Under the pieces are notes generated by a model. That model was given only the letters and a program-made list of their open reading frames with translations, was not told the DNA's origin and ran no database searches. Source: Acidobacteriota bacterium (GTDB lineage: Bacteria; Acidobacteriota; Terriglobia; Terriglobales; Acidobacteriaceae). From it: a stretch of DNA of 64,000 bases. Below are positions 8,391-13,665 of this stretch, piece by piece (within the stretch, counting starts at the first letter, position 1; every line of letters starts with the position of its first letter). The stretch spans positions 1 to 64,000 of the forward strand of contig JAJZVX010000002.1 in assembly GCA_021846985.1 (NCBI GenBank), in the 5' to 3' direction. Position numbers and translations under genes: made by a program.

Positions 8391-9284
8391 TTACAGTTCG
8401 AGATCCCGTCCGGTTAGGCGGCGGAAGGCCTCCAGATACTTGGCCTGCGTCCGCTCCGCCACTTCGGCGGGCAGGCTGGGCGCGGGCGCCTGCTTGTTCC
8501 AGTGGATCTCTTCCAGGTAGTCGCGCACAAACTGCTTGTCGAACGAGGGCTGCGGGCCGCCCGGCTTCCACGTGGTCGCGTCCCAGAAGCGCGACGAGTC
8601 CGGGGTCAGCACCTCGTCGGCCAACACCATGCCGCGCGGGGTGGCGCCGAACTCGAACTTCGTGTCGGCCAAAATCAGGCCCCGCGACTCGGCGTGCTCG
8701 GCGGCTCGGTTGTAAATGGCCAGCGTCAGCCGCTTCAGCTCCGCGGCCACCTCCGGCCCCACGGCCTTTTCTGTCGCCGCGTAGCTGATGTTCTCGTCGT
8801 GCGTGCCCGCCTCGCCCTTGGTCGAGGGCGTATAGAGCGGTCCCGGCAGCCGTGAGCCGTCCACCAGCCCCGCGGGCAGGGGAATGCCGCATACCGTGCC
8901 GCCGGCGCGGTACTCCTTCAGCCCCGATCCCGTCAGGTATCCGCGCGCCACGCACTCCACCGGATACATCTGCGCCCGCTTCACCAGCATCGAGCGGCCG
9001 CGCAGTTGATCGGTGTACGGCTGCAGCGAGGCAGGGAACTGGCTTACATCGGCGGTGATCAGGTGGTTGGGAACAATGTCCTTCAGCAGATCGAACCAGA
9101 ACAGCGAAATCTGGGTGAGAATCTTGCCTTTGCCGGGAATGCCGGTGCCCAGTACATGGTCAAATGCCGAAATGCGGTCCGTGGCCACGAGAAGTAGATT
9201 CTCGCCCACTGCATACAAATCGCGCACTTTACCCCGGCCAATCAGGGGCGTTGCGCCCAGCTCTGTCTTGAGAAGTGAAGTCAT
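8391..9284 (-). CDS. purC: Phosphoribosylaminoimidazole-succinocarboxamide synthase
   Basis: SAICAR synthetase, which joins CAIR and aspartate with ATP in purine synthesis. The 297-residue protein has family motifs GRGKVRDLYAVG (ATP-binding loop near 18-29), TDRISAFDHVLGTGIPGKG, ECVARGYLTGSGLKEY, ILADTKFEFG and LADEVLTPDSSRFW. It starts with ATG and a GGCAGGA ribosome binding site. It is the first gene of the leftward cluster purC-cvpA-fis-HAD-secretin and has a good promoter at 9320-9348. Confidence 0.97.
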   Translation of the reverse strand: MTSLLKTELGATPLIGRGKVRDLYAVGENLLLVATDRISAFDHVLGTGIPGKGKILTQISLFWFDLLKDIVPNHLITADVSQFPASLQPYTDQLRGRSMLVKRAQMYPVECVARGYLTGSGLKEYRAGGTVCGIPLPAGLVDGSRLPGPLYTPSTKGEAGTHDENISYAATEKAVGPEVAAELKRLTLAIYNRAAEHAESRGLILADTKFEFGATPRGMVLADEVLTPDSSRFWDATTWKPGGPQPSFDKQFVRDYLEEIHWNKQAPAPSLPAEVAERTQAKYLEAFRRLTGRDLEL

Positions 9285-9319
9285 GGGAAGATCCTGCCTC
9301 GGATGGAACTGAATCTCCG

Positions 9320-9348
9320 ATTTTCGAGCGTGCGCCCTGCTTTGTCAA
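9320..9348 (-). promoter_or_regulatory. Sigma-70-type promoter of purC
   Basis: On the minus strand TTGACA (9348-9343) is followed after exactly 17 bases by GAAAAT (9325-9320), a consensus -35 and a 4/6 -10. Transcription would begin near 9313, giving a leader of about 30 bases before the purC ATG. Confidence 0.6.
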
Positions 9349-9479
9349 TCGTCTTGCGCATTATGGTACGCGTCAACATCGGGCCGCTCCATGGGGCCGG
9401 AAACGGGTCTGCCAGCGCCTTGAAAATCCACATAGAGGGACGGTTTGGGGGCTTCTCGGGGGCTTCCGAAAGAGAACAT

Positions 9480-9747
9480 ACCCCTGTGATGGCCGTCACG
9501 GACCGAGCGTCGACAATGGGCGAAACTCCATCTGTCGGCCATGGTTCGGAGGGCGGATTCGATTGCTCTCTTTGAGCGGGCCGGCACGAGGCAGCCGTGG
9601 AAAGGGGAAGCCGCAGCTAGCTTCGTTGTGCAGGGATCACCAGTAGCCGCGCACTACCGACCTCCAGTGTCGGCTACTGGTCCCCGTCTTTAACTTGTTG
9701 CAAGACAAGAGCCTCCGAAGTGACGTGATCCTTCGGGGGCGTTTTTT
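9480..9747 (+). ncRNA. Candidate structured small RNA ending in an intrinsic terminator
   Basis: The 565-base gap between purC and smc has no credible gene but strong plus-strand RNA structure. Hairpin 1: CGACAATGG (9511-9519) pairs with CCATCTGTCG (9528-9537), flanked by ATGGCC (9489-9494) and GGCCAT (9537-9542), which share base 9537 with it. Hairpin 2: GGGA-TCA-CCAGTAGCCG pairs with CGGCTACTGG-TCCC (9633-9684), extended by CACT/AGTG, and exposes the loop ACCGACCTCC with the anti-Shine-Dalgarno core CCTCC. Hairpin 3 is a terminator (9711-9740) followed by six T. Both flanking genes are transcribed leftward, so a plus-strand terminator here implies an independent transcript. Its 5' end and promoter are not evident; the part from 9633 is the best supported. 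I cannot match it to a known RNA family. Confidence 0.6.
9711..9747 (+). terminator. Intrinsic terminator
   Basis: GCCTCCGAAG (9711-9720) pairs along all ten bases (one G-T pair) with CTTCGGGGGC (9731-9740) around a 10-base loop, then G and TTTTTT (9742-9747). It points rightward, away from the 3' end of smc, and matches the end of the candidate RNA. Confidence 0.8.
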
Positions 9748-9849
9748 CGCGAGAAAGCTCTGGTTTGCGCGCAACGGCAAGGCTGCCGCCTCTGCGCTTT
9801 CTGCCGGGCGCGGGCCTGCCTCGCGGAGGCGTGCCGCGGCGTCTCTGAA

Positions 9850-12800
9850 CTAGGCCGTGGCCCGCTGCTGCTCCTGTCCGCCCAGGCGGATGCTCACCAC
9901 CTTCGAGACGCCGGGCTCCTGCATGGTCACGCCATAGATGCGGTCGGCTGCCTGCATCATGCGCTTGGAGTGCGTCACCACCAGGAACTGCGTCTCCTGG
10001 CCCAGCGTACGCATCAGGTCGGCAAAGCGGCCCACGTTCACTTCGTCCAGCGGGGCGTCCACCTCGTCGAGGATGCAGAAGGGGCTCGGCTGGAACTGGA
10101 AGATGCCCACCAGCAGCGCCAGCGCGGTCAGGGCCTTTTCTCCGCCTGAAAGCAGCAGCACGTTCTGCAGCTTCTTGCCCGGCGGCGAGGCCACAATCTC
10201 CAGTCCGCTCTCCTCCTGGTTCTCCTGGTCGGTCAGCCGCAGAAACGCCTGGCCGCCTTTGAAAAGCCGCGTGAAGACCTGGCCGAAATTCTCGTTGATG
10301 CGGGCAAAGGCCTCGTCGAACTTGGTCTTCGAGATGCGGTCGATCTCCCGGATGGTCTCCTGTGTGTTCTCGATCGACTCCACCAGGTCGGTGCGCTGCG
10401 CTTCCAGGAATCCGTGGCGCTCGGCGATCTCCTTGTATTCGTCCAGGGCCATCATGTTCACCGGTCCCATCTGCTCCATGCGCTGGCGCAGGCCGCGGCA
10501 GGTTTCTTCCTCGGTGTCCAGATCTTCGCCGGCGAGGCGGGCGATCTCCGTGTCGGCGCGCAGTACGCCGGCTTCCACGTTCACCTCGGCCAGGCAGCCT
10601 GCCTCCAGGTGCTCCAGGTCGGCTCCCAGCTTGGCCAGCTCGCTCGAACGCGCGGCGCGTTCCTCGCGCAACTGGTCCAGGGCTGCGCGTCCCGTCTTGA
10701 GCTGGGCTTCGAGCGCAGCCAACTGCTGCCGCAGGGCCTGCGACTGGGCCGAGGAGGCCTGCGCCAGGGCCAGCGCCTCGGCGCGCGCCGCGATCAATTC
10801 CTGTTGGCGCTGCGCCAGCGATGCGCTCTCGGCAATGCGCTGCGTCCGCTCCGCCGCAGCGGCCGCGCGCTGTTGCTCGATGGACTGCACGCGCCGCTCC
10901 AGGTCGGCGTGCAGCCGGTCGATGCGCTGGAAGGCGGCCTCCGCGCCGCGCCGCCGTTCCTCCAGCCCGGCCAGTTCGGCCGTCAGGCGCGCGGCTTCCT
11001 GCTGCTGTTCTTCGCGGCTCTGCCGCAGCAGCGCCAGCCTGGCCTGCAGCTCATCGAGTCCAGCCTCGGCCGAGGCGCGCTCGCCCTCCAGCCGCACCGA
11101 TTCCTCCCGTTTCTGGTCGATGGCGGTCTTCCGCGTTTGGCGCGCGTCCTGGTTGCGCGCCGCCTGCGCCGTCCACTCCTGCAGCCGCCGCTCCACGCGC
11201 TGGCTCTCGGCTTCCATCTGCTTCAGCGTGGCGGCCAGGTTGGCGGCCTCGCGCTCGGCCAGGCGCCGTTCTTCGCTGTTGCGCTCCAGTTGCGCCGTCA
11301 TCTCTTCAATCGAGCGCGTCAGGGCCGCGGCTTCGCTCTCCGCCGCCACCAGGGCCGATTCCACCGTGGCCAGCCTGGCTTCGGCGTCGCGCAGTTCGCG
11401 CTTCAGGGCCAGCGGTCCTTCGCTGGCCGGCTTGCCGCCCGTCACCGTGGCGTTGTGGAAGCACTCGCCCTCGCGCGTCAGGAAGTAGGCATGGCCGTGC
11501 TGCGCCGCCAGCCGCTGCGCCAGAGCGGAGTCCTCCACCAGGTAGCCGTGTTTCAGCTTGGGAAGAATTGCCTCCAGCGAGCCGTTGAAGCCGTTGAGGA
11601 TGCGGATCGAGTCCTTCAGCGGAGTCACGCCGGGAGCGTGAATGGCGTCGGGCGCCTCCGCGAACAGCGCGCCCTGCTCGGCGGGATGCACCAGGAACGT
11701 GGCGCGGCCATCCACGCCCGACTTCAGCAGGCGCACGCCCTCTTCGGCCGCCACCCAGCTTTGCACTACCACATAATTCAGCTCTTCGCGCAGAAACTCA
11801 TCCACTACGCCTTCGTACGCGCCGGTTACCTCGATAAAGTCGGCCAGCGTGCCCACCGGCGCCATGCCTTCGGCCAGCGCTCCCGGCTTCAGCAGCCGCC
11901 GCACCGTGTCTGTCGAGTAGCCGTGGTTGCGAATCAGTGAGCCCAGCGAGTCGCGCTTGCCGGCCAGCGAGGCCTGTTCGCTGCGCAACTGATTGGCGCG
12001 GGCGCGCAGGGCGTTTTCTTCCGCGCGGCGCGCTTGCAGGCTCTCCCGTAGCGCGGCAATCTCGCTCTCCAGCCGCCGCAGCGTGTCGCCCGCTGCCTCG
12101 GAACGGGCTCGCGCCTGGCTGCTCTGCACGCCCAGGTTTTCCAGTTCGTTCCGGGCCTGGTCCATCTCCGCGTCCAGCCGCTCGGCCTCGCGCTCCAGCG
12201 CCGCCAGGCTCTCTTCGTCGTGCACAATGTGGTTGCGTGCGTTGCCGGCCAGCGTCAGCAGGTGCATGGCGTGGCGCCGGTTGGCCTCCAGTTCGCGTTC
12301 CGCGCTGAAGACCTCCTCGGCTGCGGCGCGGGCGGCGCGCTGCCGCTCCTCCACGTTTTGCCGGAAGGCGTGCGCCTCGCCGGCTGCTGTCTCCAGGAAC
12401 GAGCCCTGCTGCTTGCGTTCCTCGGCAATGCCGCCCAATTGCGTGCGCGTGGTCTCCAGTTCCGCGCCCGCAGCCGCAATGCGCGCCTCCAGTTCGGCCA
12501 CCCGCTCGGTATTGGCGCGCTCCCGGGCCGCGGCGCGCTCCAGTTCCACGGCAGCTTCGTTGCCCCGCGTCTGCGCTTCCTTGCTCTCGCGGTCCAGCTC
12601 GTAGCCGCGCTCGGTCAGCGTGTGCTGGCTGGCTTCTTCTTCGGCAATGGCCGCCGCGTCGGCGTTGATACGCTCGCTGAGGGCGGCAATCTCCGCGCTC
12701 AGCCGCGCCTGCGTCTCGTCCATCTGCGCCATGCGGCTGGCCAGCACCACGCGCAGCCGTCCGCGCAGCTCCTCGCGTACGGCGGCAAATCGCTCCGCCT

Positions 12801-13665
12801 TGGCGGCCTGCCGCTTCAGGCTGTTCATCTGCCGCGTCACTTCTTCAAAAATGTCGTCCACGCGGGCCAGGTTCTGCCTGGCGCTCTCCAGGCGCAGCTC
12901 CGCCAGCCGTTTCTTGGTCTTGAAGCGGGTTACGCCGGCGGCTTCCTCGATAATGGCGCGCCGGTCGTACGGCTTCGAGCTTAGAATCTGCCCTACGCGC
13001 TCCTGACCGATAATCGCGTAGCTCTCCGGGCCCAGCCCCGTGCCCATGAAGATGTCCTGAATGTCGCGCAGCCGGCACAGCTTTCCATTCAGCAGATACT
13101 CGCTTTCGCCGGTGCGAAACAGCCGCCGGGTGACGACAATCTCGCCCTTCTGCGGCGTGCGGTGGAACTTGCGCCGGCGGATTTTCAGCACCACGGGCTG
13201 CGGCCCTTCGCCTGCGCCCAGCGCCGCATCCGCCGCGGATTCTTCTTCCGGCACCTGTCCCGGCTGCTCGCTGGCGATAATCTCTTCCGTCTCGGCGGCG
13301 CGTTGCCGCTGCAGCTCTGTCTCGTCCCAGTCCTCGGCCGACTCGTCGTGGTCCACCGCTACTTCCGGTTCCACCGGCACGGGGCCTTCGTAAGCCGTGG
13401 GATCGATCAGCGTGATCGTCACCTCCGCCATCCCCACCGGCTTGCGATCCCGCGTTCCGGCAAAGATCACGTCTTGCATATTTGCGCCGCGCAGGCTCTT
13501 GGCGCTCTGCTCGCCCAGCACCCAGCTCACGCCGTCGAGAATGTTTGACTTGCCGCAGCCGTTCGGCCCCACCACCACGGCGACGCCCGTACCGGGCACG
13601 GTCAGTTCCGTCCGGTCGCAGAAGCTTTTGAAGCCGAGGATGTGGATCTTCTTCAGTTTGAGCAT
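9850..13665 (-). CDS. smc: Chromosome partition protein SMC
   Basis: Condensin ATPase that loops and compacts DNA for segregation. The 1271-residue protein has the N-terminal Walker A GPNGCGKS (33-40), a long coiled coil, the hinge (about residues 600-720, DFIEVTGAYEGVVDEFL), a second coiled coil, and the C-terminal signature LLSGGEKALTAL followed by Walker B FCILDEVDAPLDEVN. It is longer than the usual ~1180 residues, largely because about 80 extra residues (roughly 92-172) interrupt the N-terminal head between VTITLID and VTRRLFRTGESEY. The insert is acidic (DHDESAEDWDE), then ends in a basic KIRRRKFHR stretch. The Q-loop region and the R-loop are otherwise intact. ScpA/ScpB genes are not in the window. 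Confidence 0.97.
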   Translation of the reverse strand: MLKLKKIHILGFKSFCDRTELTVPGTGVAVVVGPNGCGKSNILDGVSWVLGEQSAKSLRGANMQDVIFAGTRDRKPVGMAEVTITLIDPTAYEGPVPVEPEVAVDHDESAEDWDETELQRQRAAETEEIIASEQPGQVPEEESAADAALGAGEGPQPVVLKIRRRKFHRTPQKGEIVVTRRLFRTGESEYLLNGKLCRLRDIQDIFMGTGLGPESYAIIGQERVGQILSSKPYDRRAIIEEAAGVTRFKTKKRLAELRLESARQNLARVDDIFEEVTRQMNSLKRQAAKAERFAAVREELRGRLRVVLASRMAQMDETQARLSAEIAALSERINADAAAIAEEEASQHTLTERGYELDRESKEAQTRGNEAAVELERAAARERANTERVAELEARIAAAGAELETTRTQLGGIAEERKQQGSFLETAAGEAHAFRQNVEERQRAARAAAEEVFSAERELEANRRHAMHLLTLAGNARNHIVHDEESLAALEREAERLDAEMDQARNELENLGVQSSQARARSEAAGDTLRRLESEIAALRESLQARRAEENALRARANQLRSEQASLAGKRDSLGSLIRNHGYSTDTVRRLLKPGALAEGMAPVGTLADFIEVTGAYEGVVDEFLREELNYVVVQSWVAAEEGVRLLKSGVDGRATFLVHPAEQGALFAEAPDAIHAPGVTPLKDSIRILNGFNGSLEAILPKLKHGYLVEDSALAQRLAAQHGHAYFLTREGECFHNATVTGGKPASEGPLALKRELRDAEARLATVESALVAAESEAAALTRSIEEMTAQLERNSEERRLAEREAANLAATLKQMEAESQRVERRLQEWTAQAARNQDARQTRKTAIDQKREESVRLEGERASAEAGLDELQARLALLRQSREEQQQEAARLTAELAGLEERRRGAEAAFQRIDRLHADLERRVQSIEQQRAAAAAERTQRIAESASLAQRQQELIAARAEALALAQASSAQSQALRQQLAALEAQLKTGRAALDQLREERAARSSELAKLGADLEHLEAGCLAEVNVEAGVLRADTEIARLAGEDLDTEEETCRGLRQRMEQMGPVNMMALDEYKEIAERHGFLEAQRTDLVESIENTQETIREIDRISKTKFDEAFARINENFGQVFTRLFKGGQAFLRLTDQENQEESGLEIVASPPGKKLQNVLLLSGGEKALTALALLVGIFQFQPSPFCILDEVDAPLDEVNVGRFADLMRTLGQETQFLVVTHSKRMMQAADRIYGVTMQEPGVSKVVSIRLGGQEQQRATA

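Follow-up and report, generated by a model that had tools for sequence, protein, structure and literature searches.

A conserved structured RNA between purC and smc in acidobacteria, proposed as a small RNA under CRP/FNR-type control

Introduction

What is encoded in the gap between purC and smc of an acidobacterial genome, where both flanking genes run leftward and the plus strand carries a series of hairpins followed by a terminator? We examined this locus in a 64,000-nucleotide stretch of an Acidobacteriota genome (GenBank assembly GCA_021846985.1, contig JAJZVX010000002.1, positions 1 to 64,000), referred to here as the window. An earlier note on this DNA, made from its letters alone, had taken positions 9480-9747 for a trans-acting regulatory RNA. 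In soil, Acidobacteria rank among the most abundant bacteria. Table 1 of a 2022 review lists 4 distinct annotated sRNAs for this phylum versus 345 for Proteobacteria (PMC9029176). An RNA that is well conserved, has two conserved loops and a promoter that can be read, and occurs in a genus with a cultured member (Occallatibacter savannae) would offer a regulator, an inducing condition, and targets that can be tested directly.

A structured RNA in the purC-smc gap

Pfam confirms both genes that flank the gap and places them on the minus strand, as had been claimed. Folding of the plus strand over 9480-9750 gave a z score of -3.4, with none of 200 shuffles as good; the minus strand of the same region scored -2.1 (5 of 200 shuffles). 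The earlier note had counted three hairpins and a terminator. Its hairpins and terminator are present, and reading from 9534 we find four hairpins before the terminator (Table 1). A simple terminator scan that allowed loops of 3-8 listed none here; the loop of this terminator is 10. The start at 9534 was assigned from the position of the -10-like hexamer and from the 5'-terminal stem, whose first base it is, giving an RNA of about 213 nt. The remainder of the originally claimed extent, 9480-9533, is better read as promoter, its inverted repeat being a CRP-type operator. Protein coding finds little room in the RNA gene, as the plus-strand frames over the RNA are free of stops in only 2, 7, and 2 of 28 loci.

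Table 1. Coordinates of the RNA gene, its predicted elements, and the flanking genes in the window
Feature	Position	Strand	Basis or remark
purC	8391..9284	-	PF01259; divergent neighbour, context; adjoins the RNA gene in most relatives
CRP-type operator TGTGATGGCCGTCACG	9485..9500		putative activator site; centre between 9492 and 9493, i.e. -41.5
-10-like hexamer GAAACT	9522..9527	+	begins 30 bases downstream of the operator centre; 90% identity (28 loci)
Small RNA gene	9534..9747	+	inferred +1 at 9534; 3' end in the terminator T-run
Hairpin 1	9534..9585	+	covarying stem, variable loop
Hairpin 2	9586..9626	+	alignment structure, covariation
Hairpin 2 loop AAAGGGGAAG, core GGGGAAG	9601..9610	+	core in 29/29 and whole loop in 28/29 rows of A1
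Hairpin 3	9633..9685	+	main helix: both sides changed in 13/15 pairs (A3)
Hairpin 3 loop ACCGACCTCC, core GACCTCC	9656..9665	+	core in 29/29 and whole loop in 28/29 rows of A1; proposed anti-Shine-Dalgarno seed
Hairpin 4, short (CTTGT/ACAAG)	9694..9709	+	A1 consensus structure
Intrinsic terminator GCCTCCGAAG/CTTCGGGGGC with T6	9711..9747	+	arms 9711-9720 and 9731-9740; T6 9742-9747
smc	9850..13665	-	PF02463; convergent neighbour, context

The earlier note had proposed covariation among relatives as a check on its RNA, and two alignments supply it. Alignment A1 holds 29 of the first 30 loci, selected independently of the loop motifs (L028, where no terminator was seen, was left out), and 17 of its 66 pairs change on both sides, against a shuffled mean of 7.0 and with none of 500 shuffles reaching 17. 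The broader alignment A3 consists of the window locus plus 41 of 72 gathered candidates. Here both bases have changed, with pairing kept, in 29 of 44 core pairs (shuffled mean 11.1; 0 of 500 shuffles), a count to be read with the dropping of diverged rows in mind, which favours structure; the poorly aligned L128 and L138 were among the sequences dropped. Sliding the partner by 1-3 columns lowered the fraction of paired cells from 98.5% to 35-47% in A1 and from 95.6% to 32-49% in A3. Related sequences inflate counts of this kind, but the effect is still large. Hairpins 1-3 each have pairs changed on both sides, and distant members preserve the shapes of hairpins 2 and 3 despite different stem letters.

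Conservation and covariation rule out a chance structure, and the segment is almost certainly a real, conserved structured RNA. Together with the promoter-like and terminator sequences, they strongly support a free-standing RNA. On sequence evidence, the gene appears to possess its own promoter and its own terminator, as do genes of the trans-acting sRNA class. The GCCTCC repeat that had been pointed out in the terminator arm is present but lies within the stem, so it says little for a second site of pairing.

Distribution among relatives

A DNA search of 60 related genomes recovered the element in 32 (the window genome and 31 of 35 other members of its genus) and in none of the 24 genomes outside the genus. 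A covariance model built on A1 detected the RNA in 71 of the 80 genus genomes. The model from A3 matched 59 of 398 family genomes, two of them judged spurious; the 57 credible genomes comprise 46 of the genus and 11 in three other genera (2 in g29, 7 in g30, and 2 in g129), the latter more diverged. A further model, R1, gave 13 matches in 349 class genomes: 9 in the genus, 3 in g29/g30, and 1 stray hairpin. These figures are minimum values for the spread beyond the genus, because stricter filters were applied in searches of more than 40 genomes. The genus includes Occallatibacter savannae AB23 and a metagenome-assembled genome called Terracidiphilus, and g30 includes Acidicapsa dinghuensis. 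A 2026 paper includes the transfer of Terracidiphilus gabretensis to Occallatibacter (PMC12935467).

We also searched 84,980 species with a pattern that combined the operator with GGGGAAG and GACCTCC; it returned 75 loci, 70 of them acidobacterial and 5 from other phyla. The pattern fixed these three elements, so their presence in the 75 loci proves nothing; the -10 register, the purC/smc neighbourhood, and the stems lay outside the pattern. The five matches from other phyla were judged unrelated, and none has a -10-like hexamer in register.

The neighbourhood is well kept. Upstream purC on the other strand and/or downstream smc in opposing orientation adjoin the RNA in 28 of the first 30 loci (absent in L012 and L013) and in 67 of the 70 acidobacterial loci, the exceptions being L138, a second copy, L149, and L154. 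Setting the second copy aside, 2 of 70 loci lack both genes, from which we conclude that the location is old and not obligatory. At L149 (G017) and L154 (G035), purC and smc are both missing from the vicinity of the RNA, and either the gene has moved or its surroundings have been rearranged.

Across 28 of the first 30 loci, those with an exact TACCGACCTCCA (whose full invariance in this set is by selection), the operator half-sites are 97% and 100% identical, as against 29.5% in the upstream flank and 39% in the downstream spacer; identity is 90% in the -10 hexamer, 84% in the RNA, and 28.5% downstream of it.

A candidate CRP/FNR-type promoter

The sequence TGTGA-N6-TCAC at 9485-9499 is the sole exact copy in the window, where 0.18 are expected. 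Because 16 of 100 window shuffles also contain an exact site, the weight of the operator comes from its conservation. The associated hexamer is held in position: xAxAxT stands in register in 65 of the 70 acidobacterial loci, and the remaining 5 have it shifted downstream by one base. Among the first 30 loci, 27 have the exact palindrome; 22 of these carry GA[AC]ACT at the same distance, 2 carry it one base further, and the remaining 3 have GAGACT or GATACT in place. The operator centre lies 29.5 bases before the -10 hexamer, which is the spacing of a class II CRP promoter. Class II CRP sites lie at -41.5, and the operator occupies this position if the hexamer is the -10 element and transcription starts at 9534, 6 bases beyond the hexamer.

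Apart from the operator, no conserved -35 element was seen; any -35 would overlap the operator, and the spacer is free to vary. GAMACT is a weak -10, and G266, among the most diverged members, carries CACAAT, which is closer to consensus. Taken together, conservation and spacing indicate that the RNA very probably has its own CRP/FNR-type promoter.

Candidate regulators are available. The genome encodes four CRP/FNR proteins above the Pfam cut-off, and NCBIfam assigns no equivalog above cut-off to any of the four. In two of them, L036 and L037, the recognition helix reads RETVTR, close to the RETVGR motif of E. coli CRP. The best solved relatives of L036 are CRP/FNR-family regulators, among them 4cyd/4byy (GlxR of Corynebacterium). 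By eye, L036 and L037 also have N-terminal CxxC..C motifs, and these cysteines may make them Fe-S sensors that read a CRP-type site. At L038 (2274-3158, minus strand), an ORF resembling a 4Fe-4S polyferredoxin membrane protein, again by eye, adjoins the third CRP/FNR gene.

Two conserved loops and the proposed function

The CCTCC loop that the earlier note saw in its middle hairpin proved to be nearly invariant and is predicted to be open. A second conserved loop, on hairpin 2, was absent from that note. Over 70 loci, GACCUCC is predicted unpaired (>0.8) in 69 and GGGGAAG in 55, with 15 below 0.8; the mean predicted unpaired value over the whole RNA is 0.36. The two alignments differ on the second loop, in that two Gs of GGGGAAG are paired with a CC just downstream, inside hairpin 2, in the A3 consensus, whereas A1 leaves both open.

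The exact string TACCGACCTCCA occurs in the RNA of 62 of 71 genus genomes and is missing in 9. Two of the first 30 loci without it read CACCGACCTCCA and TACGACCTCCA, and one second copy has the loop ATTGACCTCC, in which the first half is altered and GACCTCC is kept. This copy, the other second copies, and a remnant in genome G005 (described below) point to GACCUCC as the functional core of the RNA.

An extended Shine-Dalgarno sequence, GGAGGUC, is the complement of GACCUCC. We propose that a CRP/FNR-family activator would switch the RNA on from 9534, and that the RNA, probably with the genome-encoded Hfq (PF17209, 100 bits), would expose GACCUCC on hairpin 3, whose loop is predicted to be open. 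Pairing with GGAGGUC-type Shine-Dalgarno stretches of several mRNAs would then keep ribosomes from entering. Hairpin 2 could make a further contact through its GGGGAAG loop, acting as a second seed, for pyrimidine-rich targets, or binding a protein. Weak additional Hfq-like matches occur in C44, C37, and C5 of the window genome (G000), with 25.8-34.3 bits (cut-off 27) in ORFs of 129-150 aa.

Target searches bear on how such pairing might occur. In 10 genus genomes, the pattern GGAGGTCGG-N1-9-ATG gave 73 matches versus 62 for the reversed control, and no gene group among them was found in more than 3 of the 10 genomes when frames of at least 60 codons were compared. The 73 matches fall in 72 loci, two of which (L201 and L210) are short frames of 20 and 37 codons. 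The largest group, methyltransferase-like by eye, spans three genomes (G001, G002, and G009); pairs, likewise assigned by eye, are permease-like (G002/G009), beta-propeller-like (G369/G000), and a short frame (G008/G009). The full 12-base loop complement was matched 75 times in 79 genus genomes. Of these matches, 66 are the RNA genes or second copies, leaving 9 outside RNA genes versus 27 in the control. Full complements are thus rarer than the control outside the RNA genes, which suggests that pairing, if any, is short or imperfect.

We favour, with a probability of roughly 0.6, a CRP/FNR-activated trans-acting sRNA that would mask Shine-Dalgarno sequences with GACCUCC, and we hold it somewhat probable that such pairing is the main action of the RNA. 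As for the trans-acting regulator that had been claimed, the free-standing structured RNA stands; its pairing with Shine-Dalgarno sequences we infer from the open loop, and the searches above found no conserved target.

An unlikely alternative is that the RNA binds a protein or acts as a scaffold, with both loops recognized by a protein (or by the ribosome), so that it would titrate this partner instead of pairing with mRNA. Both loops are conserved at full length in most loci, beyond the need of short seed pairing, and conservation of a whole 10-base loop would also fit a protein site; moreover, the loop complements were not enriched in the target searches. Titrating RNAs, however, usually repeat their binding site, and here each loop is present once per RNA. 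The complementarity of GACCUCC to the Shine-Dalgarno sequence would then be a coincidence. The best known partner, CsrA (PF02599), has no match in the genome, which removes the usual titration target, and we rejected CsrA titration on this ground.

The masking of Shine-Dalgarno sequences under CRP/FNR control also supposes that the palindrome and hexamer drive the RNA. They might instead serve the divergent purC or another regulator, the RNA being transcribed from an unseen promoter; the region does lie upstream of purC, and a palindrome has no direction of its own. We consider this quite improbable, because purC has a promoter-like site of its own (TTGACA-17-GAAAAT at 9348-9320, minus strand) and because the distance from operator to hexamer is kept, whereas that from operator to purC varies.

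We think it very unlikely that the two loops form a pseudoknot switch, in which GGGG of one loop would pair with CCUC of the other and open on a signal. All 29 rows of A1 conserve both cores, which are complementary over four bases, but one of these four pairs is G-U, no compensatory change is seen (the cores are invariant in A1), and the conserved flanks AAG and GA are left unexplained. It is scarcely credible that the RNA is a cis-acting leader, whether riboswitch or attenuator, for a plus-strand gene further along: a structured RNA followed by a terminator does resemble an attenuator, but smc runs against the RNA for 3.8 kb in the window, the purC and/or smc arrangement recurs in 67 of 70 acidobacterial loci, and three second copies elsewhere adjoin other genes.

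Comparison with known RNAs

The earlier note had suggested a known acidobacterial family. An Rfam 15 scan found no family match in the window at the gathering score, and between 9280 and 9860 matches up to E = 10 were limited to three unrelated ones (E 6.5-8.4). Acido-1, Acido-Lenti-1, and 6S were not among them, so by Rfam the suggestion does not hold. Acido-1 (RF01686) and Acido-Lenti-1 (RF01687) were described as acidobacterial structured RNA candidates and rated not cis-regulatory (PMC2864571); the RNA of the purC-smc gap matches neither, even at E up to 10. 6S RNA (RF00013, a model of 187 positions) is similar in length and likewise a chromosomal noncoding RNA, but the RNA described here has several separate hairpins and does not match RF00013. 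A 6S match does occur elsewhere in the genome, at C12:213311-213496, with 46.5 bits, just above the cut-off of 46.4. Titrating RNAs of the CsrB/RsmY type share with it a free-standing sRNA and a GGA-containing loop, but by eye it has a single GGA-containing apical loop, and its genome has no CsrA match.

CyaR, whose length is under 90 nt and whose seed contains CCUCC, invites the closest comparison. This enterobacterial RNA (also RyeE) is described as CRP- and Hfq-dependent, with a seed that pairs with the Shine-Dalgarno sequence of ompX; the seed is conserved, the 5' region is variable, and a terminator lies at the 3' end (PMC11795201). A second paper describes it as regulated by Crp-cAMP and as an activator of chuA (PMC9002310). 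The likeness that we propose, from sequence, is at the level of design: putative CRP-type control, Hfq in the genome, a candidate anti-Shine-Dalgarno loop, and a 3' terminator. The acidobacterial RNA differs in its length of about 213 nt, in its two conserved loops on long hairpins, and in its phylum, and it does not match the Rfam model of CyaR at the gathering score in the window or at E up to 10 in 9280-9860. The likeness to CyaR is one of design, not of descent. The open-access literature that we searched on small, noncoding, or structured RNA of Acidobacteria or Occallatibacter yielded no description of this RNA, and we propose it as a new RNA family that acts in a known way.

A wider reading is tentative, and we regard it as more doubtful than not. 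It holds that the RNA would be a two-handed, lineage-wide riboregulator of acidobacterial metabolism under CRP/FNR control: one conserved loop, GACCUCC, would act on Shine-Dalgarno sequences, and the other, GGGGAAG, would act independently on pyrimidine-rich targets or on a protein. Its CyaR-like design would have evolved separately. If the proposed mechanism holds, this design would have had an independent origin here, with a CRP-type global regulator exerting repression through an RNA that masks Shine-Dalgarno sequences. The wider reading would also give a phylum in which very few sRNAs are known an sRNA regulon controlled by a global regulator.

Variant loci and second copies

Nine of the 80 genus genomes lacked a match to the A1 covariance model. 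Four of them (G410, G413, G022, and G010) also have no purC match, which fits an assembly gap. In G411, purC lies at a contig end, and in G007 the DNA search gave a match at a contig start; G021 and G399 are two more of the nine. G005, rated 100% complete, retains a remnant to the right of purC (L294): the operator, the -10 hexamer, and hairpin 1 are still there, as is the GGGGAAG half of hairpin 2, whereas both hairpin 3 and the terminator have been lost. By eye, no separate terminator hairpin is present in G266, G608, or the second copy L055, and in L055 a T-run follows hairpin 3. Matches L053, L059, L060, G481, and G352 were discarded as unrelated after their sequences had been read.

Diverged second copies stand at other chromosomal sites in three genomes: L055 (G369) beside a PALP enzyme and an FG-GAP protein, L056 (G254) beside a GHMP kinase and LexA, and L057 (G358) beside a beta-galactosidase-like ORF and an ACT-domain ORF. 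The covariance model gave further second matches in G400, G418, G006, and G248. Partial second matches at contig ends, L058 (end of G248:C17) and the start of G006:C159, possibly reflect a gene that was split or doubled by assembly.
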